Source of the DNA: Salinigranum rubrum
GTDB lineage: Archaea > Halobacteriota > Halobacteria > Halobacteriales > Haloferacaceae
NCBI RefSeq assembly: GCF_002906575.1
Contig: NZ_CP026310.1
Coordinates: 1 to 64,000, forward strand
DNA length: 64,000 nucleotides
Reading direction: 5' to 3'
The position numbers and the translations under genes were made by a program. The first letter of the stretch is position 1. Each line of letters begins with the position of its first letter. Under the pieces are notes generated by a model. That model searched no databases, was not told the DNA's origin, and saw only the letters and a list, made by a program, of their open reading frames with translations. This document shows, one piece after another, positions 1-16,587 of this stretch.

Positions 1-912
1 TTCGTAGAAGTTCATGCGTGAAGCCATCGGTTCCGGTGCGGCCGGCGTTCCTCGTAACTCCGGGTCGCTCCCGAGGATCACGATTCGGCCACCGTCGGCG
101 AGGACTCTGTGGATCTCACTGAACACTTCGATGGGGTTCGGGAGGTGACCGAGAACGCTGGTCATGGTTGCGCACGAGAACGTGCCATCTTCGAACGGCA
201 ACGCCTCGGCATCGGCCTCCCGGACATCGAGCCGTCCTGTCTCGACCGCGTCTCGGTTGGTCTGCTTCGCCAGCCGGACCATCTCCGGGCTATGGTCGAT
301 GGCCGACGCCCTGCAGCCACTTTCTAGGGCTTTGGCGAGAAGCACCCCACCTCCACAACCGACTTCGAGGAGGTGGTCGTCGGGCCCCAACGCGAGCTCC
401 TCTAATATAACACGGAAATTCGGGTAGTGATAGAGCGGATCGCCGTATTCTTCCCGGGCGGCATCACCTGTCGGTCGTCGCCCCTCGCGGTCGGTGAGCC
501 AATCGCCGAACGCGTCCGGTGACGTCGCGACGAGATGAGGAGCCACAACCTCCGTGGCAAACCAGCCGACCATGTCGGGACGGTTTTCGATCAGCTCGTC
601 GAGTCCACGATGCTCCATCGTGATCCGCGTCCCGCCATCGATCGAGTCGAATCGAAACGTGATCTCGGTCGTCGACGCTGGCTCCCAGGCCGCCGGTCGC
701 CATTCGAATTCGAGATCCTCGCCAGGGTTCCATGACGTCACCCGACCCACTTCGTACTCGCCTCGGGTGAAACGGCCGTCGGGTCCAGACTCGAATCCGA
801 ATCCAGAATCGTCGAGCGTCCAGGTGAGTTCGTCGACGAAGTACTCGAACGCGTCCCGAGGGCTAACGGCGATTTCCGCGCTCGTCCGAATAGAGGTTTC
901 GTCGTTCTCCAT
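1..912 (-). CDS. SRPBCC (AHSA1-like) domain fused to a SAM-dependent methyltransferase, cut by the window edge
   Basis: Reading down from the ATG at 910-912 gives 304 residues with no stop before the window edge, so the C-terminus is missing. Residues ~1-125 look like an SRPBCC/START ligand-binding fold (WRPAAWEPASTTEITFRF, then GGTRITMEHRGLDEL). Residues ~165-290 are a class I methyltransferase: SAM-binding motif LLEVGCGGGVLLAK, acidic loop SAIDHSPEMV, motif GTFSCATMTSVLGHLPNP and post-motif FSEIHRVLADGGRIVIL. The order binding domain then methyltransferase suggests the first domain senses or presents a hydrophobic substrate (inference). The DUF1772 gene lies 41 bp upstream on the same strand, so the two are probably co-transcribed. 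The substrate is unknown. Confidence 0.8.
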   Translation of the reverse strand, partial: MENDETSIRTSAEIAVSPRDAFEYFVDELTWTLDDSGFGFESGPDGRFTRGEYEVGRVTSWNPGEDLEFEWRPAAWEPASTTEITFRFDSIDGGTRITMEHRGLDELIENRPDMVGWFATEVVAPHLVATSPDAFGDWLTDREGRRPTGDAAREEYGDPLYHYPNFRVILEELALGPDDHLLEVGCGGGVLLAKALESGCRASAIDHSPEMVRLAKQTNRDAVETGRLDVREADAEALPFEDGTFSCATMTSVLGHLPNPIEVFSEIHRVLADGGRIVILGSDPELRGTPAAPEPMASRMNFYE

Positions 913-953
913 TTGCGTGCGATGATGTTGGCCTGATCTATCGTTTCGTGTGC

Positions 954-1478
954 TCAGAACGGCTCGACGAACGATGCACTGAGCGACAGGGTAGCTACGA
1001 CGTACAACACGAACGAGATGAATGCCGCAACCGTACGAACGTGGTTCCACCGCTTCCACCGGGCCCGAACTTCTTCCCACCCGGTCGGTGGCGACTCGAT
1101 CGACCATCCGGCGATGGTGTTGTTCATCGGGACGCTGACCAACAGAGTGACCCCGGCCGTCCCGACGAGATAGATCACGGTCCCGGCGAGGAACAACTGG
1201 CCGAACAGGGCAGTCCAGAGGCCCTCAATGAACACCAGAAACGCACCCACGGTCGGTACGATGATTGCGCCGCCGAAAGAAACGCCGAATAGCGGGTTCA
1301 GGATCTCCTCGTTGATCGATTGCATCACGCGGGTGTACGACGACGCCGAGAGCGTGTCGAGCGTCAGGACTACGCTCACTGAATAGGCAAAAAATAGCCC
1401 GGCCATGAGTCCACAAAGGATCGTGGACGAAGCCACTAAAAATACGACGAGCGGCTCCAAAGTGCCGATCAGACCCAC
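954..1478 (-). CDS. DUF1772 / anthrone-oxygenase-like membrane protein
   Basis: This is a 174-residue protein with four predicted membrane segments (about 8-32, 62-85, 88-110 and 148-170). The first helix region GLMAGLFFAYSVSVV and the NNTIAGW stretch are typical of DUF1772 proteins, which are related to anthrone oxygenases. Known family members are small integral membrane proteins, and the archaeal ones have no proven reaction. It is the first gene of a probable two-gene unit with the SRPBCC-methyltransferase fusion. A quinone or polyketide-like substrate shared by the two would fit but is inference. Confidence 0.75.
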   Translation of the reverse strand: MGLIGTLEPLVVFLVASSTILCGLMAGLFFAYSVSVVLTLDTLSASSYTRVMQSINEEILNPLFGVSFGGAIIVPTVGAFLVFIEGLWTALFGQLFLAGTVIYLVGTAGVTLLVSVPMNNTIAGWSIESPPTGWEEVRARWKRWNHVRTVAAFISFVLYVVATLSLSASFVEPF

Positions 1479-1634
1479 GGCGAATCACCACATCTCGTTC
1501 CCGCGATTCCATGTGGCTGGTGTCGAGACAATGGCGGCACCGGAACAGTTGTCTCCGATGTGTCGAGCTGAACCGAACGGGTATCCCTAGCTTTCCAACC
1601 ACGATGAATTGGGAGGCCGTCCGTGAGTTGGATA

Positions 1635-2375
1635 CTATTCATGCGAAGCCGGCACCACCGTCTTGAATCGGTCGTTCCACTCGACATCGACGAACTTGTC
1701 TGGATCCGTGCGGTTCATCGACTCGCGAGTAACGACTTCGAACGTCCGATTCGTTGCCTCTGGGGATACCAGTGCGGCAACCATGAGTCGAGCGACGTCT
1801 ACTCGTGGAACTGATCCGGTCATCGCTCCACCACCTTCCGCAAGGATGACCTCAGTACTCGGAGGGTCCCCCCTCAACCAGCCGGGACGGAAAATGATAT
1901 GATCGATATCGGAGTCACGGAGCGCCTGTTCCGCTCGTTCCTTGTCTCGGACCGCCCACCGAAGAACGAGTAATCGAGCCCAGAGCGGCATTCCCAGACG
2001 GGAGTTGCCGGCGCCAATGGAACTCTGGAAGACGAACTTGTGAACGGTCGTGTCCGCAGCTGCGTCAACCAGATTAATCACGCCGTCCCTGTCGATGACT
2101 CGGTGGGGTCGAAGAAGGCCGGTGGTAAGGCTTGAGCCGGCAGCAAAGAGGATCGCGTCACATCCCTCAACAGCCCTTCGGGCACCCACCGGCTCCAGCA
2201 AGTCACCGACCACGACCTCGTCGGCACCATTCGCCTGGAGTAATGTGCGGTTGTGCTCCGATCGGGTTAAGGCACGTACGTGCAACGAGGTTCTACGTAG
2301 TACTGCCAAGAGCTCGTGGCCGGTGCGACCACTCGCACCGGTGACGAGAACGCTTGATGGGGTTCGTTGGGTCAT
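1635..2375 (-). CDS. NAD(P)-binding SDR/NmrA-like protein
   Basis: The 246-residue product begins MTQRTPSSVLVTGASGRTG, a Rossmann glycine-rich loop at residues ~10-16. It continues with NADG-ADEVVVGDLL and FQSSIGAGN, typical of atypical SDR (NAD(P)H-binding, NmrA-like) proteins; IIFRPGWLRG follows in the usual place. The reading frame extends upstream to 2468, but the ATG at 2373-2375 puts the Rossmann strand at the normal distance from the start. Such proteins are either quinone/flavin reductases or redox sensors; the sequence does not decide between them. Confidence 0.8.
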   Translation of the reverse strand: MTQRTPSSVLVTGASGRTGHELLAVLRRTSLHVRALTRSEHNRTLLQANGADEVVVGDLLEPVGARRAVEGCDAILFAAGSSLTTGLLRPHRVIDRDGVINLVDAAADTTVHKFVFQSSIGAGNSRLGMPLWARLLVLRWAVRDKERAEQALRDSDIDHIIFRPGWLRGDPPSTEVILAEGGGAMTGSVPRVDVARLMVAALVSPEATNRTFEVVTRESMNRTDPDKFVDVEWNDRFKTVVPASHE

Positions 2376-2774
2376 ATTATTTCTTGGAATGCCGACAGTT
2401 GCAGGAAATAATGTCAATTTTGCACTATATTGGTCCTTGCAGTGATCGGTTAGCAGGCTGCGACGCACAAAATGGGTCCAAACTGAACAATCGTGAGGCC
2501 CGGAGCGAGCCGGAACAATCTAAGCAGCGCTACGATGACACCGAGGATCGACAATATTCCCGTATTCGCGTTCCATGCAAGGATTCGCCGATTCTTCATC
2601 GGAGTGAGTATGAGGCCGTCTACCTCTGGATTTAACGCCGAGCATGAACCCTACCTTTAAATTCGACCACCAGACCACTGTCTAGTGAGGGTGGAAATCG
2701 TGCTTGGTTTTAACGCACGGATTAGTACAGGTCAACCCTATACTCCGCCTGGATTCCCATATAATGGGGGTATG
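2376..2774. other. Intergenic stretch with a promoter-like element
   Basis: I see no gene here. The only recognisable sequence is copy 1 of the recurrent element (2636-2659). On the plus strand a GTG at 2685 opens a short frame beginning VRVEIVLGF, which faintly resembles the first strand of the HTH_10 regulators but ends after about 40 codons. It may be an N-terminal relic. Confidence 0.4.
2636..2659 (+). promoter_or_regulatory. Recurrent promoter-like element, copy 1
   Basis: Reads CGCCGAGCATGAACC followed by CTACCTTTA. It matches four other copies in the window (3567-3590, 13528-13551, 15772-15797, 19215-19238). The terminal TTTA resembles a haloarchaeal TATA box. No intact gene follows this copy. 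Confidence 0.55.
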
Positions 2775-3457
2775 TCACTCGATCACAGACTGAATAATCT
2801 TTGATTCTATCCGTCGGAGATGGTCTCCAATGGTCCCTTGTGACACGCCAATCTCGTCGGCCAATTCACGCTGTGTGACCCGCCGTGGTATCTCGTAGTA
2901 TCCCGCAGCAACTGCTTTCCGTACGACCTCTATCTGACGGTCGGTTAGCTGCGCTGCTGGGTCGTTCATCGATGGCTGGAAATCCCCAGTCTGTTTGAGA
3001 GTCAATTTCATCTCATCAGGAATGTTCGCAATCAACTGCTGGAGGGCGATATCTTCGCCGAAGAACGTAACCTGCAGTCCGTCCGCTGTCTCCACCATCG
3101 GCCAGTCAATACTGATTACCTCAGTGTCGAAGAGTTCGAGGAGTGCTCTCTCGAACTCCGCAGGCTCATAGTGAAGGTACGCCAGCCCTGTCTCCCCCCG
3201 GTCACGGTACAAGAGATTATCTCCGGGCTCTCTGATTCTAACCTCATAAGCTGTTCGGCATCCCCCCTGAACCGAAAGATCCCGACTGCGGTCCCATCTT
3301 TGAGAAGGTTGAGGTACCGTATCGCTTCCTGCGTCGCTATCAGCCTGTCATCGATCCACACCTCTCGCCGATTGATACCTCCTTCCTGCGAAAGCTGGTG
3401 GCAGAGGGAAGAAACGTGTTCTTCGGCCAGGGAGAGAACGATGGTCACGTATCTCAT
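2775..3457 (-). pseudogene. HTH_10 (Bat-like) transcriptional regulator, frameshifted in a G6 run
   Basis: Two overlapping frames together match the intact regulator at 15907-16587 from end to end. The first frame (from ATG 3457) covers MRYVTIVLSLAEEHV through CTVTGG. The second covers ETGLAYLHYEPAEFERAL through the C-terminal HTH (QRELADEIGVSQGTIGDHL). They are out of register by one base at a run of six G (plus-strand C6, 3194-3199); seven G would restore one 227-residue protein. Bat-type regulators bind DNA through the C-terminal HTH_10 domain. Without the missing base the product lacks its DNA-binding domain. It could be a true pseudogene, a phase-variable run or a sequencing error. Confidence 0.85.
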
Positions 3458-3795
3458 TGCTATGTGTGTTATTCGCTCGGAGAAACAGATTGTTCCATTA
3501 TCCATCGATTCTCGGGATGGAGCGTTTCTGTCACTATCATACGGAAGTGTGCGAACACTGTACACATAAAGGAGGCGTGCATGATTGCCGTAATAGCTGA
3601 CACAACTGATACGCTATCACCCTTGATGGAAACGCAAGCGATACCCTCGAGTAAACCACATCGGGACTCTTCGATGGAGACTACACGACGAATTGAACTC
3701 GTGAGTGTTGAGCATGGGAACCATGATCGCGAAGCCGATACCGAGGTACACAGACCGGAGCTGTGCGAATTGTCGCGAGACGGGGTCAGAATACA
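3458..3795. other. Intergenic, divergent promoter region
   Basis: Lies between the broken HTH_10 gene and the epimerase gene. It contains copy 2 of the recurrent element on the minus strand. It also holds a short minus-strand frame starting at the ATG at 3538-3540 (23 codons, beginning MIVTETLHPENRW), 27 bp downstream of the element's TTTA. Nothing else is recognised. Confidence 0.4.
3567..3590 (-). promoter_or_regulatory. Recurrent promoter-like element, copy 2
   Basis: On the minus strand it reads CGGCAATCATGCACG followed by CCTCCTTTA. It lies about 110 bp upstream of the HTH_10 gene starting at 3457, the same distance as copy 4 ahead of the sister gene at 15907. The TTTA is a likely TATA element. 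Confidence 0.6.
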
Positions 3796-4752
3796 ATGAG
3801 CCAACTCAGTGTCTTCATTGCCGGCGCGACGGGCGTGCTCGGTCGACGACTCGTTTCCCAATTCGCCGAGCGCGGTCACACCGTCGTTGGGCTGTCGCGA
3901 GACGAACGGGGCGACGAAATCGTCGAAGCGAATGGCGGTGAACCGCACCGAGCCGATCTATTCGACGAACAATCCGTCGTTCGAGCGGCCGAGGGATCTG
4001 ACGTCGTGATTCACGCGGCCACCGCGGTCCCGACAGAGAACCCTACGCCCGAGAAGTGGGATGTCCACCATCGAGTCTGGACTGAAGGGGTCGAGGCGCT
4101 CACCAAGGCAGCGGCGGAAGCTGGCGCCGACCAATATCTACAGCAGAGCATCGTCTGGGTAGCCCGGCAACCCGATGGGGAATCATTCGACGAAGAGTCA
4201 CGCGTAATCCCAGATCCGTCGACAGAGGCTGCCATCGAAGCCGAAGAGATCACCCGAGAGGCCGATTCGACCTACGATTTCGACGTGGGCATCCTCCGAT
4301 GCGGGTATTTCTACGCCCCAGATGCGTATCACACTCGGTCCGTTGGCGAAGGGCTCCTGCAGGGCGAACAGTCGATAATCGATGGTTCGGAGAACGCGAA
4401 GATCTCACGTCTCCATGCACATGACGCCGCCAGTGCGTTCGTCGCGGTTGGAGAATCTGGACGAAGTGGGCTCTGGCACGTCGTCGACGACGAACCAGTG
4501 AGCCCAGCCACGTTCTTCACCGAACTGGCAGACCGACTCGATGCACCCACGCCTGGACGAATGTCCGATGAAGAGGCTCGTCAAGAGCTCGGTGACGTTC
4601 AGGTGGAGCTGTTCACTCGACCGATGGAGACGTCGGCCGAGAAGTTACGGTCAGAAGTTGGATGGGAACCGACGTACGCGACGTACCGAGAGGGGTTGGA
4701 TCACGTCGTCGAAACGTGGCGGTCGGAAGGATACCTCCTTGAGGCATCATGA
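3796..4752 (+). CDS. NAD-dependent epimerase/dehydratase (extended SDR)
   Basis: The 318-residue protein has the cofactor loop FIAGATGVLGRRLV near the N-terminus, the strand motif DVVIHAATAVPT, and a SIVWVA...YFYAPDAYH region in the usual active-site positions. The start is the ATG at 3796, 11 codons inside the longest frame, which places the Rossmann strand directly at the N-terminus as in its paralog at 14245. The paralogs are highly similar along their whole length. The VOC gene downstream overlaps by 4 bp (ATGA), so the two form an operon. The family acts on sugar nucleotides or other hydroxy/keto substrates; nothing identifies the substrate here. Confidence 0.88.
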   Translation: MSQLSVFIAGATGVLGRRLVSQFAERGHTVVGLSRDERGDEIVEANGGEPHRADLFDEQSVVRAAEGSDVVIHAATAVPTENPTPEKWDVHHRVWTEGVEALTKAAAEAGADQYLQQSIVWVARQPDGESFDEESRVIPDPSTEAAIEAEEITREADSTYDFDVGILRCGYFYAPDAYHTRSVGEGLLQGEQSIIDGSENAKISRLHAHDAASAFVAVGESGRSGLWHVVDDEPVSPATFFTELADRLDAPTPGRMSDEEARQELGDVQVELFTRPMETSAEKLRSEVGWEPTYATYREGLDHVVETWRSEGYLLEAS

Positions 4753-5156
4753 ACGTCACCGCAATCGACCACGTGAACCTGCGAATCCCCGAAGGCGAGG
4801 TAGACGACGCAATCGAGTTCTACGAGGACAGCCTCGGGGCCGAGACGGAAAATCTCACGCGGTACGAGAGCGGCGAGAAGCCGTTCTTCTCGTTCAGACT
4901 GACAGAGATGAGTGTCGTCCATATTCGCCCCGTCGCCGACTTCAAGCGCCCTAGTGGCCAGAATTATGATCACCTTGCTCTCCTCGTCAAAGATTCCTTA
5001 GAAGACCTGAAGCAGCAGCTCGTCGACGCCGGGATTGACGTACTGCGTGAATCCGAACCGCTTGGGGCAACTGGCGTCGCCCCGGCCATCTACGTTCAGG
5101 ACCCGTTCGGGTACATAATCGAGATTAAAGAAGACCGTCTATCCGGAAACGCCTGA
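4749..5156 (+). CDS. VOC-superfamily (glyoxalase-like) protein
   Basis: A 135-residue vicinal-oxygen-chelate protein with the two beta-alpha-beta-beta-beta units: ITAIDHVNLRI-type start (NVTAIDHVNLRIPEG), second unit beginning YDHLALLVKD, and C-terminal DPFGYIIEIKE. His8, His77 and the Glu near residue 127 are in the positions of metal ligands in the family. Its ATG overlaps the epimerase stop codon, so it is translationally coupled. The function could be a glyoxalase, dioxygenase or small-molecule binding protein. Confidence 0.85.
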   Translation: MNVTAIDHVNLRIPEGEVDDAIEFYEDSLGAETENLTRYESGEKPFFSFRLTEMSVVHIRPVADFKRPSGQNYDHLALLVKDSLEDLKQQLVDAGIDVLRESEPLGATGVAPAIYVQDPFGYIIEIKEDRLSGNA

Positions 5157-5253
5157 TGCGGGTCATTCATCAGACTTCACGCTGTTCGATGACCGAACGG
5201 CGGAACAAGAGTAAGTCCGAACGGTCGCCGCGACGGGAGCTGTCTCATAAACC

Positions 5254-6120
5254 GTGACGTACGAAAACAAGGCCCAGCATCCACTGGTTGAGCTCATCCC
5301 GACTCGACGTGTCGTCGTCGAGTGGACTGTTCTCGGGACGGTGCTGACGCTCGTCGCCAGCTTCATCTTCAGTGGGGTGTACGCCGCTGGAACGGGACAG
5401 ACGGATGTCGGGTTTCAGATCAGCGATTTCGAGTCGGCCCTTGTCGAAGTCACCGGGGTGATCGTCCTCATCGTCGCAGTGCTCGGGCTACACGAGACGG
5501 TTCACGCCGGCGTGATCCGGCACTTCGGCGGCGATGTGTCGATTGGCGTCGGCATCGCTCAGTTCGTGCTGCCGTATGCATATGTGACCACGACGCAACG
5601 ACTCAAGCGGAACCAGTTCATCGTTGTCGCGCTCGCTCCGCTCGTCGTCATCACGGTGCTCGGTGTGCCGCTCATGATCATGTTGGATGCCGCGATTCTG
5701 ATCCTCCCGCTCGCACTCAACGTCGGGGGCGCGATTGGCGATCTTTGGATGGCCGGGATACTGCTCCGGTATCCGACGCACGTCGTCGTTGAGGATTCGG
5801 TGACTGGCGTGACGATCTACGGGCGGCCCGATGACGAATTGGCGGCGACGAGCGAGTCGGGCCTTCTGAGACGGGCCATTATCGGTACAGCCGGTGGATT
5901 CGGTCTCCTGTTGCTCGTCGGGTTATCCGCGCCCATTCTGGTGGGTGCCCTGGGTGTTGATGCCGTCACGATCGGTCTCCCAGGCTCACCGTGGAGCATC
6001 TACACGTTCGAGGGTTCAGCCGGGGAGTTCGATATGAACCTCAATTACGTTGGCCTGGTCGGGGCGAGTGTTCTTATCGGCTGTCTGTTTTCGATTGGGG
6101 CGCATTTTTTGAGAGGATAG
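5254..6120 (+). CDS. DUF3267-type membrane zincin-like metalloprotease
   Basis: The 288-residue protein starts at GTG 5254. It has a membrane helix at ~22-45, then HETVH at residues 80-84 inside a second hydrophobic segment, followed by further helices and a C-terminal membrane anchor. HExxH within a hydrophobic segment followed by HFGGDVSIGVG is the hallmark of DUF3267 (putative zincin peptidase, related to site-2-type membrane proteases). It stands alone between a VOC gene and an epimerase relic. Substrate and role are unknown. Confidence 0.75.
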   Translation: MTYENKAQHPLVELIPTRRVVVEWTVLGTVLTLVASFIFSGVYAAGTGQTDVGFQISDFESALVEVTGVIVLIVAVLGLHETVHAGVIRHFGGDVSIGVGIAQFVLPYAYVTTTQRLKRNQFIVVALAPLVVITVLGVPLMIMLDAAILILPLALNVGGAIGDLWMAGILLRYPTHVVVEDSVTGVTIYGRPDDELAATSESGLLRRAIIGTAGGFGLLLLVGLSAPILVGALGVDAVTIGLPGSPWSIYTFEGSAGEFDMNLNYVGLVGASVLIGCLFSIGAHFLRG

Positions 6121-6378
6121 ATGAGTAGCATCCTCGCCTGATGCGAGGGTTGTGGGTGCTGATAGTCTGCCTCAAGTAAGAGCGATAAACGATCGAGATC
6201 TTTGCCCGTTACCGCTTTCCGGTGGCGACTGACCCCTAGATGGGCGATTCGAGCTGAACCCTGAGGTCCACGGCCATTATTGCTAAATATCATATGTCTC
6301 GTTCGGTATATAGCGGAATACTCGTTCTGCTCTGCACCCTCCGATCAGTTGATATATTGACATAGATGATTATGCAAT

Positions 6379-7315
6379 TCAGACGAGGAAGTCGATTGAC
6401 GTCCATGCTTCTACGATCTGGTCGATTCCTTCCTTATGCGTAGAATATTCGGGCATCCAGCCGATATCATTCTTGAATGGGTCGTTAGATGTTGCCATTG
6501 GATTCGCTAGACGGTCCACTGTGAACTCCCCCAGTTCCCGGCGGGCATCCTCTTCTTGTACTCCCTTCGGTGTGAGTGCGTTAGCCGGTCGGCGAAGGTG
6601 GTACAGAATTCCGCGGCGCTCACTGGTTCATCATCCACAATATGCCACATACTGCATTGACTCGTCGCGGGAGCAGCGACGAACGCATTGGCCGCGTCAT
6701 CTACATGGATGCGTGAAAGCGCAGCATTTTTCGATCCAATAATGATGGGTCGGTTTCCGTGGACGAGGGGTCCCCCAACGTCCGTGTATGGGTTGCATCT
6801 GGAGCGTAAAACTGATCGCACCGTAGGATGCTCAGGTCGAAGTCGTGTTGCTCGGCAGCCGTGACGGCTATTTCTTCGGCGTCAACAGCGGACTCAGCCC
6901 TCGGGTTTGGGTGTTGGGTTGAATTTTTATCAAACGGGATCCCATCTGGTTGACGCGCCACCCAAACGATATTCTGTTGAATATACCGGTTGGCATTAAC
7001 TTCGGCTGTTGCTGCAATGAGTGTTTGAGTCCTTTCGCGTCGGATACGGTTGTTGATTGCCCATTTTCCGGCGTTGGATCATCTGTTGGAATCGCTGTGG
7101 CGGCGTGTATGACGACATCAGCTCCTGACGCAGCTTGAACAACCGACGCCGCATCGAAGAGATCGCCCTGACGGGGATCGCCCCCATGAGCTTCGACGAG
7201 TTTATTTTCCTCCTCGTCTCGGGGTGAGCTCGATCACGGTATGTCCGGAATCGGAGAACTACTTTACGAGTCGGTGACCGAGTACACCCGTCGATCCCGC
7301 AATAAACACCAGCAT
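6379..7315 (-). pseudogene. Degenerate third copy of the epimerase
   Basis: On the minus strand the segment keeps pieces of the epimerases at 3796 and 14245 in the correct order. It starts MLVFIAGSTGVLGHRLVK at 7315 and then hits an in-frame stop. Further pieces are MARQPDGIPFDKNS, FDLSILRCDQFYAPDATHT, SRIHVDDAANAFVA, MWHIVDDEPVSAAEF and finally EGIDQIVEAW before the stop at 6379. Several frameshifts and at least one stop codon separate the pieces. It is clearly non-functional. Confidence 0.88.
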
Positions 7316-7625
7316 GCTCCTCTCACCGTTTTGCTGGAAGAAATATGCACTGACCAGAAGCCGCCATTCATTCGATGAGCAGGCAGCTGTACCAGCTGAA
7401 TTGTGCCTGATGATACAGTCTTGCGTCGTCGAGAATACTCGAACGTGGACAGTTCGAGTGATTTGTGGGATTTCAATCGAAGGTTCTGACCACTGTGTAT
7501 CCGGCCCTGACGGTACTCCTGTTGCTGTAACCCAACAAAGCCTGTCCCCATTCGTGGAACACTCTATTGAATTCGGCTGCTGCGGGTTAGTACGGCATCA
7601 AAAGTGGGGTGCAAATCCTACCTCG

Positions 7626-7712
7626 GCTGTCGGGATTGGCATGTCACAAGGGACGGTCGGAGATCACCTCCGACTGCTCGAAATAGCGATCAATCAGTCT
7701 GCGATCCATGAA
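7626..7712 (+). pseudogene. C-terminal HTH relic of a Bat-like regulator
   Basis: About 29 codons read VGIGMSQGTVGDHLRLLEI then AINQSAIHE, matching the recognition-helix end of the HTH_10 genes at 2775 and 15907 (EIGVSQGTIGDHLRR). The flanking sequence of the open frame shows no similarity to the rest of the family. It is a fragment of a lost regulator next to the degenerate epimerase. Confidence 0.65.
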
Positions 7713-7815
7713 GCAGACGCTCATCCGATGATTCGACTTCGTTGACAGCTGAGGGTCCACCTCCCATCCGATTGCCGAAGAGACTGGGGACAAATTCTCT
7801 GGCATCCACTCCGAA

Positions 7816-8118
7816 CTATCTTCTCACAAAGCCAGGGGGTTCGGATCTCGGGGTTTCATTTGAACGTGCGGTAGAGTGATTCTGTGCAGGAGTGAGTTCG
7901 CCATCGACGATGACCATAGTTGCACCTCTCTCCGCGACGAGTGCGGAGAGTTCCACTACTTTTCCCGACCCGAAGTGAGTCGTCGAATCCTCGGGACGGA
8001 CCTGGATGATCTCGTGGACGATTATGTAACCGGCGGCTTCGGCAAGATCTCGTATCTCGTCAGTGTCCGGCGTGCCGGAATCAACGCGCTTTGCAATGAT
8101 TGCTTTTGTATCTGTCAT
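7816..8118 (-). pseudogene. HflX-type GTPase, N-terminal fragment
   Basis: The frame from ATG 8118 reads like the N-terminal domain of HflX: DTDEIRDLAEAAGYIIV, THFGSGKVVELSALVAE and ATMVIVDGELTPAQN. After residue ~80 the similarity stops abruptly. The whole GTPase (G) domain is absent within the remaining ~20 codons. HflX is a ribosome-associated GTPase of about 430 residues, so this is a truncated relic. Confidence 0.65.
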
Positions 8119-8604
8119 TCGTGGTTGTGACTACGTGTGCTCTCTGCGTACGATACGGCGACTCGATCCGTACCGAGCGCTCAGGAACTCGAAAACAGGA
8201 CCACCAGTCGGCGCTACCGAAACGGTCGGCAGGCCATCATGGTGATGATTGCAGCTTATCACCGATTTTTGTCGTGACGAGGCCGACAATCAACGGCGAT
8301 GAGATTCAACCGCCACCATCAGACGGGGCCCAGTTATAGGATAAAAGAGGTGGTCATCAATCGCTCTGTTAGTACCTTATGGACAACGATTAAAAGCGTT
8401 ATCTTTTACCGTGAGGGGTTTTGAGATGGGGCCTGCTAGATTCAGAAAAGGGCGGTCATACTCTCTGTTTCTACATCGGTACTGTGCGACTGATGGGCGA
8501 TGTCACCTCGGTACAATTTCGATATCTGATTAAATTCTCTCAATTCATTACCCAGTCAAACAGCTAATTCACCCATTTCACGGAATCTTCCCGTCCTCTC
8601 GATG
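8119..8604. other. Intergenic region, nothing recognised
   Basis: There are about 490 bp between the HflX relic and the downstream end of the HTH_10 gene. No coding frame with haloarchaeal character, repeat or RNA gene was seen. An AT-rich patch lies around 8380-8415. Confidence 0.35.
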
Positions 8605-9240
8605 CTACGGTACCGTCTCAGAGACGAATTGCTTGATAATTCGGCTTTCTGCCCGGTGGCGCAACCGGCTCATTGCCGAGACGTTGACATCAAGCGCTTC
8701 TGCCAGTCCCGTCAGCGTACACTCCCTGGGCGTGGCGTAGAAGCCTCGGTGGACCGCCTCGTTGACGAACTCCCATTGACGGTCGGTAAGGAGTTCTCTC
8801 GAGCCGTGGGACTGGGATAGCGAAACGACCTGGTATGGTGCGCCCGCCGATGCCAATGTCTCGGAATACTCCGTTAACCGTGCATGTGAGGCCGTTATCT
8901 CAGTCGAATACCACCCCTCTTGAAGCAGTACGGGTTGCTGAGGGATGATTCCCGAGGAGACGAGTGCGTCGTAGGTGTCCGAAACCGGAATCAAGAATTG
9001 GATGATTATGGCGTCTCCGTCGGCGTGGATCAATTCGAACGCACTCACCTCGGGATCCCCCTCAAAATGGCGCACAACGGCGTCTCCGTTGTCAGTCGTC
9101 ACCTCGACAATGTCGAAAATTTGGTCTTCTTGGGGCAAGGCCGATAGAATTCTGAACTCGGCGTCCGGGAACTCGGTCGACGTGTCGGCCAACCAGTCGT
9201 CTATCGGCGCGGCGTTGAGCCGGAGCTGGACGCGAGGCAT
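8605..9240 (-). CDS. HTH_10 family transcriptional regulator
   Basis: The 211-residue protein starts MPRVQLRLNAAP. The ATG at 9240 is chosen because it aligns with MPSARLKFKLPG of the paralog at 11286. The C-terminal segment (residues ~150-208) carries the HTH_10 signature: LLTDRQWEFVNEAVHRGFY, TPRECTLTGLAEALDV and HRAESRIIKQFV. A TATA-like CTTTATGTG lies about 25 bp upstream (around 9262-9272, minus strand), consistent with leaderless transcription. It is divergent from the nitroreductase-MFS operon and with the 11286 regulator flanks it, which suggests both control that operon (inference). Confidence 0.88.
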   Translation of the reverse strand: MPRVQLRLNAAPIDDWLADTSTEFPDAEFRILSALPQEDQIFDIVEVTTDNGDAVVRHFEGDPEVSAFELIHADGDAIIIQFLIPVSDTYDALVSSGIIPQQPVLLQEGWYSTEITASHARLTEYSETLASAGAPYQVVSLSQSHGSRELLTDRQWEFVNEAVHRGFYATPRECTLTGLAEALDVNVSAMSRLRHRAESRIIKQFVSETVP

Positions 9241-9323
9241 GACCTGCATTCGATGCCAGCCCACATAAAGGAGGAAAGTACTTCACGCGTGAACCCAGGG
9301 TCAACCACCGACTTGGTTCAGCT

Positions 9324-9962
9324 ATGGAATCAGGCATTCCCAAGCAGGTGCTATTCAGCGACGTTCACGAATATCGGTCGCCAAATTACGATATCGCGAC
9401 CCTCCTGCTGAACCGGTGGTCGCCACGTTCGATGACCGGTGAGTCGCTCGATGAGGCCGAGTTCATGCCGCTATTCGACGCCGCACGGTGGGCTCCCTCG
9501 GCGTACAACAGCCAACCGTGGCGGTTCCTGTATGCGATCCGGGGGAGCGAACATTGGGACGTCTACTTCGACCTCCTGTCGGAGTGGAATAAGCGCTGGG
9601 CGACTCAGGCGGCCTTGCTCGTCCTAATCGTCTCGAAGACGACGTTCGAGTACAACGGCGAACCGGCGCAGACGCACTCCTTCGACACGGGCGCTGCATG
9701 GGAGAACCTGGCTCTCGAAGGAGCCAGACGTGGGCTGGTCGTTCACGGGATCGGTGGATTCGACTACGAACGTGCGCGTGAGGTCCTCGCTGTGCCTGGA
9801 GACTTCGCGGTCGAGGCAATGGCCGCGATCGGCGTCCCCGGATCGGCCGCGGAACTCCCCGTTGAACTCCAAGAGCGCGAAACGCCGAGCGATCGGAAAC
9901 CGCTCGACGAGGTCGTCATCGAAGGGACGTTCGATGAGCATGGGGCTAGGGAGGACCAGTAG
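9324..9962 (+). CDS. Nitroreductase-family flavoprotein
   Basis: The 212-residue protein has the FMN-binding nitroreductase start RWSPRSMTGE at residues ~31-40, the dimer/FMN motif RWAPSAYNSQPWRFLY and the later TGAAWENLALEGARRGL. Family members reduce nitro groups, quinones or enones with NAD(P)H. The stop at 9962 is followed 2 bp later by the MFS transporter, so the enzyme and exporter are co-transcribed. Their pairing with two flanking regulators suggests detoxification and efflux of an electrophilic compound (inference). Confidence 0.9.
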   Translation: MESGIPKQVLFSDVHEYRSPNYDIATLLLNRWSPRSMTGESLDEAEFMPLFDAARWAPSAYNSQPWRFLYAIRGSEHWDVYFDLLSEWNKRWATQAALLVLIVSKTTFEYNGEPAQTHSFDTGAAWENLALEGARRGLVVHGIGGFDYERAREVLAVPGDFAVEAMAAIGVPGSAAELPVELQERETPSDRKPLDEVVIEGTFDEHGAREDQ

Positions 9963-9964
9963 CA

Positions 9965-11200
9965 ATGACCGAATCCACAGCAAACTCGCGGCTGGTGATC
10001 GGATCGCTGGTGCTGGCGGGTATGCTACCCGTCATGGGGTCGACGGCAATCTCGCCGGCGCTGCCGGCAATCCAGGCCGCTTACAATCAGACGCCGAACG
10101 CGGAGTTTTTGGTCCGGTTGATGCTGACGCTCCCGGCACTGTCGGTCGTCGTTTGCTCCCCTCTCGTCGGTGCCCTCGTCGACCGGTTCGGACGAACCGC
10201 GCCCCTAATCGTCTCGACTGGCCTCTTCGCACTGGCTGGCGGTGCAGGGTACGTCATCGACTCGTTGTACCTCTTATTGGCGTCGCGAGCGATTCTTGGA
10301 GTCGCTATCGGCGGAATCATGGTTACGTCCACGACGCTGATAACGGACTATTTCAACGGCGACAAGCGAGAATCCGTCCTCGGCTGGCAGGGCGCCGCGG
10401 TCAACCTCGGAGGTGCGTTCTTCCTAGTCATCGGCGGCGTGCTCACCGACTTCGGGTGGCGAGCGCCGTTCCTCGCGTATCTGTTCGCGTTGGTACTGCT
10501 ACCGCTCCTCGTGGTCTCGCTCCACGAGCCGAGGATCGAGGGGGAAGCGTCGGCGACCGAGACTCGTACGACGTTCGCGGAAGTACGCCGATTCCTCGAT
10601 GAAGTGCCGATCCTGACCCTCGGGACGATGTACATGATCACCCTGGTAGTATGCATCCTGTTCTATCTAATTCCAATTCAGTTGCCGTTCTATCTGGAGG
10701 TTGAGGCGGCCGTCACTGGCACCTTGGCCGGTACCATCCTCGCCACCTACAACATCTCAGGGATGGTCTTCTCCTCGCAGTTCCAGCGGCTCAACGCACG
10801 ATTTGGCCTCGTTTTACTGGTTGCCCTCGTGTTCGGACTGATGGGTACTGGCTACGTGATCATCGGGCTCAGTAGCGCGGCACTCGGCATCGTCCTTGGT
10901 CTCCTCGTCGCCGGCCTCGGCTGGGGACTGCTCATTCCGATCGCGAACACGTGGGTGTCCCAGTCGGTTACTCAGGCGCGACGAGGCCGGGCATTGGGCG
11001 GAGTTTCGAGCGTGATCTTCCTCGGCCAGTTCCTATCGCCGATCGTAAGCCAGCCGGTCATCGAGTGGGTGAGCCTGGCCAGTACCTACGGCTTAGCTGG
11101 ACTGGGGATGCTTCTACTCGCCGTCGTGTTCGTGATCGGAAATCGGTGGTACGAGTTGGGACATCAAGGAGCGTTGCGACCGTCGTCGGGCTCCCAGTAG
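9965..11200 (+). CDS. MFS transporter, probable drug/metabolite efflux
   Basis: The 411-residue protein has about 12 hydrophobic segments. It shows the MFS motif A loop GALVDRFGRTAPLI between helices 2 and 3 (residues ~67-80) and an N-terminal helix VLAGMLPVMGSTAISPALP typical of drug:H+ antiporters. Cytoplasmic loops are short and a central loop follows helix 6. It begins 2 bp after the nitroreductase stop. It most likely exports the substrate or product of that enzyme. Confidence 0.9.
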   Translation: MTESTANSRLVIGSLVLAGMLPVMGSTAISPALPAIQAAYNQTPNAEFLVRLMLTLPALSVVVCSPLVGALVDRFGRTAPLIVSTGLFALAGGAGYVIDSLYLLLASRAILGVAIGGIMVTSTTLITDYFNGDKRESVLGWQGAAVNLGGAFFLVIGGVLTDFGWRAPFLAYLFALVLLPLLVVSLHEPRIEGEASATETRTTFAEVRRFLDEVPILTLGTMYMITLVVCILFYLIPIQLPFYLEVEAAVTGTLAGTILATYNISGMVFSSQFQRLNARFGLVLLVALVFGLMGTGYVIIGLSSAALGIVLGLLVAGLGWGLLIPIANTWVSQSVTQARRGRALGGVSSVIFLGQFLSPIVSQPVIEWVSLASTYGLAGLGMLLLAVVFVIGNRWYELGHQGALRPSSGSQ

Positions 11201-11285: not shown

Positions 11286-11912
11286 ATGCCGAGTGCGCGG
11301 CTCAAATTCAAGCTTCCAGGGGGCCCATCGTCCATCTCGATAGCCAACCCGGACGACGAATTTCGGATACTGGCAACCCACCCGACAGTAACCGAACTGC
11401 GGGTGATTCTCCAAGTCCGAACGTCGGACACTGACGTCATCATCCGACAGTTAGACGATGCACAGTGGCTACCGTCCTATGACGTGCTACACGTTGACGA
11501 ACAGACCTTGCTCGTCGAGTACGCCCTCGGGTCACTCCCCTCGCTGTATCAGGCGATCCTCTCTTCTGGAAATATGCTTCAGTTTCCGATCGAGCTCAGA
11601 GACGGCTGGATGGTTTGCGACATAATCACCTCACACGAGCGGTTGTCGAAGCTCAAAGACGCATTAGAGGAGGAATCAGCCCCCTACGAGATCGGCTCGG
11701 TCATGCAGTCGACGGAGCCAGTTGGGCTACTGACTGACCGCCAACAGCGGTTCCTCGTCGAAGCCGTCAAGCGTGGATACTACGACTCGCCACGACAGTG
11801 CACGCTCACTGAACTCGCCGACGGAATGGACGTGAGTAAGTCTGCTGCGAGCGGTATTCTTCACCGGGCCGAAGGGCTAATCCTCAAGTACTGTATTGAC
11901 TTGTCGGTCTGA
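11286..11912 (+). CDS. HTH_10 family transcriptional regulator
   Basis: The 208-residue protein is paralogous to the regulator at 8605-9240. Its N-terminal domain shares ISIANPDDEFRILATHP with the other's EFPDAEFRILSALPQ. The C-terminal HTH_10 reads LLTDRQQRFLVEAVKRGYY, SPRQCTLTELADGMDV and HRAEGLILKY. It lies 85 bp downstream of the MFS gene on the same strand. Possible partner regulator of the nitroreductase-MFS operon. Confidence 0.88.
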   Translation: MPSARLKFKLPGGPSSISIANPDDEFRILATHPTVTELRVILQVRTSDTDVIIRQLDDAQWLPSYDVLHVDEQTLLVEYALGSLPSLYQAILSSGNMLQFPIELRDGWMVCDIITSHERLSKLKDALEEESAPYEIGSVMQSTEPVGLLTDRQQRFLVEAVKRGYYDSPRQCTLTELADGMDVSKSAASGILHRAEGLILKYCIDLSV

Positions 11913-12012
11913 GCCCACATGTCGGGCGGAGACGGCCGGGCGGCGCACCGATAGGCTACCTTCTGACATTGGTGTGGTTTTCAGATGATGGACAGCAGTC
12001 CGACACCGCATT

Positions 12013-12024
12013 TGAACATGTTCA
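12013..12024. promoter_or_regulatory. Palindromic operator candidate ahead of the first ABM gene
   Basis: The perfect 12-bp palindrome TGAACATGTTCA lies 132 bp upstream of the ATG at 12145. The same core lies 130 bp upstream of the second ABM gene. A second conserved block, ATCTGATG-CAA, follows 47 bp after the start of the palindrome here and 46 bp after it in the other copy. Confidence 0.6.
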
Positions 12025-12144
12025 CATCAACGCTGAGGTCATCAGCGTCCGTATGCCCTATCTGATGTCAAGCACTGTGACGACTGATACGATTTCCGAG
12101 TACGGCCCCGACCGACAAGCGGAACCACTGCGGTGGAGGAACGA

Positions 12145-12474
12145 ATGACGCAATCCGAATCCCACGTCATCCGGGTCGGCATCTACGCCATGCCCGACGA
12201 GGCGCGCGATGAGTTCCTCCGTCAACTTCTGAGCAAGGAGGACACGCTCAGAGCCCAGCCTGGATTCATCGAGGCTTCGGTACTCGAACAGTCAGGGGGT
12301 CCGGGTGAGTTCAACTTCGTGACGATCGCCGAGTGGGAGAACCAGGACGACTACGAAAACGCTCTGGAAACGATCGGTACCCGACACGAGCGTCACAATT
12401 TCGACCCCCAGGAGCTGTTCTCTAGGCTCGGAATCGAGGCGGATTTCGCGACATATACCCAAATTGACGGGTAG
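12145..12474 (+). CDS. Antibiotic-biosynthesis-monooxygenase (ABM) domain protein
   Basis: The 109-residue single-domain protein has the ferredoxin-like ABM pattern: VIRVGIYAMPDEARDEFL, then AQPGFIEASVLEQSGGPG and NFVTIAEWENQDDYENAL. A GGAGG at 12135-12139 sits 5 bp before the ATG at 12145, which supports this start over the in-frame GTG at 12133. ABM proteins are cofactor-free monooxygenases or heme/quinol-modifying enzymes. The tandem neighbour at 12849 is a clear paralog and shares upstream regulatory sequence. Confidence 0.85.
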   Translation: MTQSESHVIRVGIYAMPDEARDEFLRQLLSKEDTLRAQPGFIEASVLEQSGGPGEFNFVTIAEWENQDDYENALETIGTRHERHNFDPQELFSRLGIEADFATYTQIDG

Positions 12475-12715
12475 CGGAATCCACCCGGTTTTGTAGGTCC
12501 GGGTTCAGTTAGGGTGCGTCAAGCCAGTGGATCTGTCGTTGGCCCGTTCTTCGTTACGCCGGTTGATCAAGACTTTCTCTGACAGCTTTCCATCTGATCA
12601 AAATAAGCGGTCAAGGGTGCAATCTGCCCGAGTGAACGTGTGAGAGGAAATCAGCTGGAGTTCCAGCCGGAGGTTTCCAACCCGTCGACCCGCTCTGGCG
12701 CCGTGACGTCCGATG

Positions 12716-12733
12716 GCGTGAACATGTTCACGC
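12716..12733. promoter_or_regulatory. Palindromic operator candidate ahead of the second ABM gene
   Basis: The perfect 18-bp palindrome GCGTGAACATGTTCACGC contains the same 12-bp core as the site at 12013-12024. The core starts 130 bp before the ATG at 12849. It is a strong candidate for a dimeric repressor site. Confidence 0.65.
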
Positions 12734-12848
12734 GAATCTCGATGTCTGTTCCCGTCCAATGGACATCTGATGGCAACTCCAGAAATCATCAGACCGAGTA
12801 TCTCGTCCCGAAGCAGACGGCCGACCGGAATGGGTGGTGTCTGAACGG

Positions 12849-13220
12849 ATGAGCGACGGCCAGCCCGTCCACGTTTTTCGCGTCGACAAGTTCGTCGTTC
12901 CCGATGATGCACGGGACGAGTTCGTACGGGAACTCCGCCGGACGCACAACCTGCTCGCCGAACAGCCTGGTTTCGTCCAAGATTCCTTGCTTGAACAATC
13001 CGACGGTCCCGGTGAGTACAACTTCGTGACAATTGTCGAGTGGGAGAACCATGAAGCACTCGAGACGGCTCGAGACGTAATCTCGGCTCTGCACGAGCGA
13101 TCGGGCTTCGACCGTGAAGAGCTGTTCACCAGACACGATATCAGAGCAGACATCGCTGCGTATGCTCTGATCGGCGGGTCCAAGCTCACCACGGGAGGGG
13201 AGATACGGGACGCGAATTGA
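12849..13220 (+). CDS. ABM domain protein, tandem paralog
   Basis: The 123-residue protein is closely related to the gene at 12145. It has HVFRVDKFVVPDDARDEFV, AEQPGFVQDSLLEQSDGPG and NFVTIVEWENHEALETA, and ends with a ~15-residue tail the other lacks. The start at ATG 12849 is preferred over GTG 12834 because it matches the paralog's N-terminus. The duplicated unit includes the upstream palindrome, so the pair arose by duplication of gene plus promoter (inference). Confidence 0.82.
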   Translation: MSDGQPVHVFRVDKFVVPDDARDEFVRELRRTHNLLAEQPGFVQDSLLEQSDGPGEYNFVTIVEWENHEALETARDVISALHERSGFDREELFTRHDIRADIAAYALIGGSKLTTGGEIRDAN

Positions 13221-15820: not shown

Positions 15821-15907
15821 ATGCGAGCCAGGCCATCGTGTGTGTTCCGCGAGCACGATTCGAGAAGACGGAAGGACTTCCACCGAGTCCCGCGCCCGGA
15901 GCGATAA
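15821..15907 (+). other. Possible leader ORF coupled to the HTH_10 regulator
   Basis: A 28-codon frame (MRARPSCVFREHDSRR...) opens at the position expected for a leaderless transcript from the TTTA at 15794-15797. Its TAA overlaps the regulator's ATG as TAATG. This could be translational coupling or chance. The broken sister gene at 3457 has a comparable short frame upstream, without sequence similarity. Confidence 0.3.
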
Positions 15908-16587
15908 TGCGGTACAGCACCATCATCATCTCGCTGGACGAACAGATCCGGTCAACCACCGACCAGCAGCTGCGGCGCGGGGTCGACGACCCGAGAGCGA
16001 TATGGATCGACGGATCGCGCGTCGCGACGCAGGAAGCGATACACTACATTAATCTCCTCGACGATGGATCCGTCGTCGGTGTCGCACAGTTCAGAGGAGA
16101 CGCCGCGCACCTCGCACGGATCCAGGAGGACGTTCCCCACATCATTTCATCCACCGTGACGGGTGGCGAGACGTGGCTGGGATACATGCACTACGAACCT
16201 GGCGACGTGGAACGCGCTATCCTCGAACGTCTGGACAGCGAGGCGATCAGCATCGATTGGCCGATGCGTGAAACCGATTCCGGACTCCAAGTGACGCTCT
16301 TCGGCGACGACGCTGCCGTACAACACCTGATAACGGCCCTCTCCGAAGACGTCAGCGTGTCGCTCGAACGGAAAGGGGAGTACGAACCGGAGATCGGCGA
16401 CCCGGGCGAACACCTCACCGACCGGCAGACAGAAATCGTCCGCACAGCACTCGCTGCAGGCTACTACGACATCCCGCGCCGCGCGACCCAACGAGACCTC
16501 GCCGCCGAACTCGGTGTCTCGCGCGGCACGATCGGTGACCATCTCCGCCGAGCAGAATCGAAGATCATCAGAGCCGTCTTGCAGTGA
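15907..16587 (+). CDS. HTH_10 (Bat-like) transcriptional regulator, intact
   Basis: The 226-residue protein starts MRYSTIIISLDEQIR. An N-terminal sensory domain (RAIWIDGSRVATQEAIHYI, VGVAQFRGDA, HYEPGDVERAILERL) is followed by the HTH_10 domain at residues ~165-225: LTDRQTEIVRTALAAGYYDI, RRATQRDLAAELGVSRGT and HLRRAESKII. The start is ATG 15907 rather than the longer frame from 15838, because the frameshifted paralog at 2775-3457 begins at the same residue. It may regulate the downstream VOC/RibD genes or its own promoter element; neither is shown. Confidence 0.88.
   Translation: MRYSTIIISLDEQIRSTTDQQLRRGVDDPRAIWIDGSRVATQEAIHYINLLDDGSVVGVAQFRGDAAHLARIQEDVPHIISSTVTGGETWLGYMHYEPGDVERAILERLDSEAISIDWPMRETDSGLQVTLFGDDAAVQHLITALSEDVSVSLERKGEYEPEIGDPGEHLTDRQTEIVRTALAAGYYDIPRRATQRDLAAELGVSRGTIGDHLRRAESKIIRAVLQ

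Follow-up and report, generated by a model that had tools for sequence, protein, structure and literature searches.

Each of the two tandem genes for antibiotic-biosynthesis-monooxygenase (ABM)-fold proteins studied here in Salinigranum rubrum lies behind the same palindrome, which we predict with fair confidence to be the operator of a dimeric HTH_10 (bat-type) factor, most likely the one encoded at 11286-11912, in such a way that the ABM paralogues and this regulator would constitute a small co-regulated unit. Contig C2 (237 kb) carries these genes, and the window, that is, the whole stretch of DNA analyzed, is 64,000 nucleotides long. The features are the following.

8605..9264, minus strand: second HTH_10 regulator (PF04967), recognition helix NVSAMSRLRHRAE, of another type; divergent from nitroreductase/MFS genes
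9282..9293, no strand assigned: related element TTCACGCGTGAA, between HTH_10 8605 and the nitroreductase gene, in the promoter of HTH_10 8605
11286..11912, plus strand: HTH_10 regulator (PF04967, E 2.1e-16) with the SG-type recognition helix SKSAASGILHRAE, directly upstream of both ABM genes
12013..12024, no strand assigned: predicted operator 1, TGAACATGTTCA, 132 bp 5' of the ABM-1 ATG (12145)
12060..12071, plus strand: second block, copy 1, ATCTGATGTCAA; the genome has ATCTGATGNCAA only here and in copy 2
12145..12474, plus strand: ABM-1, ABM-fold protein of 109 aa (PF03992, E 1.8e-8)
12716..12733, no strand assigned: predicted operator 2, perfect 18-bp palindrome GCGTGAACATGTTCACGC, with the core TGAACATGTTCA at 12719-12730, 130 bp 5' of the ABM-2 ATG (12849)
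12765..12776, plus strand: second block, copy 2, ATCTGATGGCAA, the other genomic ATCTGATGNCAA copy
12849..13220, plus strand: ABM-2, paralogue of ABM-1, 123 aa (PF03992, E 5.8e-8), with a weak PDB match to SnoaB

The first-pass annotation had placed the palindrome core 132 and 130 bp before the two ATGs and described its extension to a perfect 18-bp palindrome at the second site. The coordinates bear out both statements; at site 1 the extended left half is imperfect (14-bp frame 12012-12025, TTGAACATGTTCAC). The whole-genome search that it had proposed found exactly two copies of the 12-letter palindrome TGAACATGTTCA in the 4.97-Mb genome, both ahead of the ABM genes, for a chance expectation of about 0.1 estimated from composition. 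Eleven other perfect CATG-centred copies of GTGAACATGTTCAC, from the wider genome collection, were rejected as operators, all of them being inside long ORFs and several reading VNMFT. A literature search with TGAACATGTTCA as a literal string returned unrelated papers only.

The assignment of both ABM proteins to PF03992 exceeds the curated cut-off (34.9 and 33.2 bits against 23.1), and the same holds for HTH_10 11286 in PF04967 (59.9 bits against 23.1), for which a comparison with solved structures gave no match. Upstream of this regulator are an MFS transporter, a nitroreductase and the divergent second HTH_10 gene (8605-9264), the start of which likely lies near 9241, and downstream of the ABM genes are RidA-like and NmrA/epimerase-like genes and another HTH_10 (15838-16587). 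ABM homologues at E<=0.001 were found in 2 of 197 genomes and in 9 of 391 Halobacteria-class genomes, with only one close homologue (genome G419), so a motif search at ABM orthologues alone failed. The nearest relatives are the haloarchaeal protein of G419 (54% identity to ABM-1), one from a Rhizobium plasmid (52%) and one from Nevskia (45%). This subfamily (12145-13220), nearly absent in haloarchaea, is otherwise bacterial at 45-52% identity, which suggests a transfer of the ABM genes between domains; a megablast of the region against plasmids gave no matches.

The palindrome belongs to an element that is not private to the ABM locus, but recurs at HTH_10 genes of several haloarchaeal families. 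This element, (G)TGAA-N4-TTCA(C), occurs a short distance ahead of many HTH_10 (bacterio-opsin-activator-type) genes in haloarchaea. For this, HTH_10 homologues were collected from 242 Halobacteria-class genomes, and the 300 bp upstream of 56 of them were scanned: GTGAA-N4-TTCAC with at most one mismatch was detected in 19 of the 56 (14 perfect, 5 with one mismatch), against none perfect and 0.4 with at most one mismatch in dinucleotide shuffles. A match at -12 in another region (L054), overlapping the start, was taken as chance. In 391 genomes, 12 of 14 distinct GTGAATATATTCAC sites were within 1.5 kb of an HTH_10 gene, compared with 1 of 48 sites of its asymmetric variants, which served as internal control. 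The sites of HTH_10 genes are mostly at -46 to -78, with a few near -150. In the upstream regions L033-L040, GTGAATATATTCAC or GTGAATCGATTCAC is directly followed by a TTTTTAAG-like TATA box, and a conserved CCGTRGTCTCR is present on the other side.

The window also shows the TGAA-N4-TTCA palindrome in intergenic position and adjoining an HTH_10 gene. In G419, the ABM orthologue and an HTH_10 gene point away from each other; the product of the latter is 44% identical to 11286, and GTGAAGGTATTCAC lies in the gap between the two genes. The intergenic site reads GTGAAGGTATTCACGCGAA, compared with GTGAACATGTTCACGCGAA at site 2 of the window. For the nearest relatives of 11286, examined in a later test set, CATG-centred versions were found between HTH_10 and NmrA or cupin genes, as GTAAACATGTTCAA in Haladaptatus salinisoli (HTH_10 62% identical to 11286), CTAAACATGTTTAC in H. 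pallidirubidus and GTAAACATGTTCAG in Natrinema zhouii, and SV-type relatives have CGAA-N4-TTCG instead.

This last difference follows the recognition helix. In a comparison of about 80 related regulator genes, the SG-type (SxxSG[VI]LHRAE) HTH_10s of the pooled set had TGAA-N4-TTCA upstream in 17 cases and CGAA-N4-TTCG in none, whereas those of KSTxS[VED] type had CGAA-N4-TTCG in 17 and TGAA-N4-TTCA in none; 11 of 28 SG-type genes had no perfect site in the scanned region. The split persisted after thinning at 70% identity (4:0 against 0:10, Fisher P=0.001) and at 55% (3:0 against 0:6, P=0.012). On a maximum-likelihood tree the operator label has to change at least twice: CGAA appears in a KST-SE clade that branches deep and, separately, in a nested KST-SV clade adjacent to 11286. 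Since CGAA occupies two separate clades, the helix tracks the operator better than overall kinship does, with few independent events; since as few as two changes suffice, shared ancestry accounts for much of the rule. The regulator linked to the window sites, 11286, has the SG[VI]LHRAE-type helix, and both window sites have T:A as outer base pair. We consider it somewhat more probable than its opposite that the residues after the conserved serine (SG or KSTxS[VED]) determine the outer base pair (T:A or C:G, respectively) of a common xGAA-N4-TTCx' operator, that the operators and regulons of many uncharacterised HTH_10s could thus be predicted from the protein, and that the ABM unit belongs to a T:A-class detoxification or redox regulon. 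A literature search found no description of a TGAA-N4-TTCA operator or of an HTH_10 helix code.

The recurrence at HTH_10 genes and the association of helix and operator lend comparative support to the earlier proposal of a regulatory module to which one of the HTH_10 proteins encoded nearby would bind. Two neighbours had been named as candidate binders, 8605 and 11286, of which 11286 is favoured by its SG helix (SKSAASGILHRAE), whereas the helix of 8605 (NVSAMSRLRHRAE) is of a different type, despite the presence of TTCACGCGTGAA in its own promoter. The TTCACGCGTGAA string overlaps the GTGAA-N4-TTCAC sites of four HTH_10 promoters (L033, L034, L058 and L169), an overlap that suggests a third half-site.

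For 11286 as the binder among 45 HTH_10 domains, what argues is its neighbourhood and its helix type. Several observations go against it. Its own promoter was scanned and has no such site. The ABM sites are at -130/-132, compared with -46 to -78 in the class, and they abut no TATA box, whereas the sites of the HTH_10-gene class abut the TTTTTAAG TATA box, a placement (about 45-80 bp plus TATA) that is typical of the TGAA-N4-TTCA class and not of each member. The SG-type genes that have no perfect site (11 of 28) and the small number of changes behind the helix rule weigh on the same side. Finally, at least 45 HTH_10 domain matches are present in the genome and another of these proteins could bind. 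The binder could then be 8605 or a copy from the 232-236 kb region, for example, and the ABM genes would be part of a wider, trans-encoded regulon. The contig C2, with 4.8% of the genome, holds 11 of the 45 matches, and near C2:232-236 kb there are fragmentary copies of SG type or close to 11286, with sites beside them. These copies are, however, broken into pieces, the helix of 8605 differs, and among the 30 HTH_10s of this genome with a helix read the SG type was found only in 11286 and one broken copy. Hence a binder other than 11286 seems unlikely to us.

The end of C2 carries two more sites, TTGAACATGTTTAC and GTGAACGTATTCAC, each adjoining an HTH_10 copy and ahead of an NmrA-like or glyoxalase-like gene. 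In this segment (C2:232300-236200; L058 10225-14669) the HTH_10 copies are fragmentary, one of them with 63% identity to 11286 over 82 residues, the NmrA-like gene is apparently split across frames and is accompanied by a glyoxalase-like gene, and there is a GTGAA-N4-TTCAC-like site at each. The cluster appears to consist of duplicates of the window cluster that are now decaying.

Inverted repeats of the size of this palindrome are a generic operator architecture, and a regulator of an unrelated family (ArsR, TrmB, TetR-like or other) could have a palindrome similar by chance. The statistical tie of the sites to HTH_10 genes (12/14 against 1/48; 19/56 against 0.4) and the matched variation of outer base pair and HTH_10 recognition helix make this explanation very improbable.

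The first-pass annotation had read the conserved spacing in diverged flanks as a sign of selection. The sequence between the blocks has indeed diverged: the regions from palindrome to ATG, apart from the 12-bp second block, align no better than shuffles, and neither does the sequence upstream of both palindromes. The two proteins are 51% identical, and only 10 of 25 fourfold-degenerate sites are equal in both genes, indicating that neutral sites in the two copies have become randomised after the duplication. These randomised sites, together with the diverged flanks, imply that the sharing of both blocks is not due to recency; a very recent, identical duplication, which would have undone the earlier reading, is thus ruled out. 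The data point to selection as what has kept both shared blocks, local gene conversion being less likely. Residual similarity without function, from tandem duplication or local gene conversion, fits with the genes being tandem paralogues that share only short blocks, but we give it hardly any weight, the synonymous sites being randomised and the flanks unalignable while 12/12 and 11/12 bases persist at near-constant spacing and other genomes have the same palindrome at genes that are not paralogues.

The second block, of the form ATCTGATG(T/G)CAA, begins 47 bp (ABM-1) and 46 bp (ABM-2) after the first letter of the palindrome, and the whole-genome search detected ATCTGATGNCAA in two copies, both at the ABM upstream regions. 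It had been described as part of one regulatory module with the palindrome; the block and its spacing of 46-47 bp are real, and its membership in the same module is only plausible, as it is specific to the ABM pair and was not seen at other homologues. The combined pattern of palindrome and ATCTGATG was searched in relatives and none had both, so the second block is not generalisable. It may be a core promoter or leader element of the ABM genes.

From these data we infer that a dimer of HTH_10 11286 would bind each palindrome and control the ABM gene behind it, one operator copy per gene putting both paralogues under one regulator, and that the recognition helix would read the outer base pair, which is T:A here and C:G in the denitrification motif. 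As with Bat and NarO, binding would probably activate an intrinsically weak archaeal promoter on a redox or electrophile signal. Activation is likelier than repression by 11286: its characterised relatives are activators, and the ABM sites have no good TATA box next to them. The genes found beside T:A-class sites, which include ABM, NmrA, glyoxalase, cupin, FMN-reductase-like, FAD-oxidoreductase, SnoaL-like, luciferase-family and MFS genes, suggest a response to electrophilic or redox-active compounds. In haloarchaeal genomes HTH_10 (bat-type) regulators number in the dozens, and for almost none of them is a DNA site known; a link between helix type and operator type would make this mostly orphan family testable, with predicted targets for each member. 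It would also place ABM genes with close bacterial homologues under a specific archaeal regulator.

The closest known system is that of the denitrification promoters. A passage of PMC5746218, citing Hattori et al. 2016, describes CGAA-X4-TTCG in those of Haloferax volcanii as essential for nirK transcription. In H. mediterranei, CGAAYATDKTYG precedes the start codons of nirK, nor and nosZ by 66-79 bp, and activity of the nos promoter fell most when the first C of CGAACATGTTCG was changed to T (PMC10062603). Bacterio-opsin activators have been proposed as the regulators of this motif (PMC11218638). Judged by its letters, the window element is a sister of the published CGAA-N4-TTCG motif, its T:A variant. 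Both window sites have the 12-bp inverted repeat xGAA-N4-TTCx' of the NarO-type motif, often with the same centre, and in both classes the sites cluster around an HTH_10 gene. The outer base pair is the only difference between CGAACATGTTCG and TGAACATGTTCA, C:G in the former and T:A in the latter, and it is the C-to-T change that reduced nos promoter activity (PMC10062603). The linked helices differ too, SG-type for the window class and KSTxS[VED]-type for the denitrification motif, and so do the neighbours, ABM, NmrA, glyoxalase, cupin, FMN-reductase and MFS-type genes in the T:A class as opposed to nir/nor/nos; at the window the targets are ABM genes rather than denitrification genes.

In Haloferax larsenii, Halobellus limi, Haloprofundus and Halorussus, the HTH_10 genes located in denitrification islands combine a KST-SE helix with CGAA-N4-TTCG sites, and in S. 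rubrum itself two of the three CGAACATGTTCG copies are at the starts of HTH_10 genes with KST helices. In the island of the Haloferax larsenii plasmid (L204), eight CGAA-N4-TTCG sites, from 890 to 11009, are arranged around one KST-SE-type HTH_10, which is likely the regulator of the published motif.

With regard to the proteins, the window ABMs share by Pfam the fold of SnoaB and the quinol monooxygenases, with a weak PDB match to SnoaB, but belong to a subfamily very rare in haloarchaea. HTH_10 11286 has the DNA-binding domain in common with Bat and DmsR, of a family for which an activator logic has been described (PMC11218638), and differs from them in having no PAS or GAF domain in Pfam.
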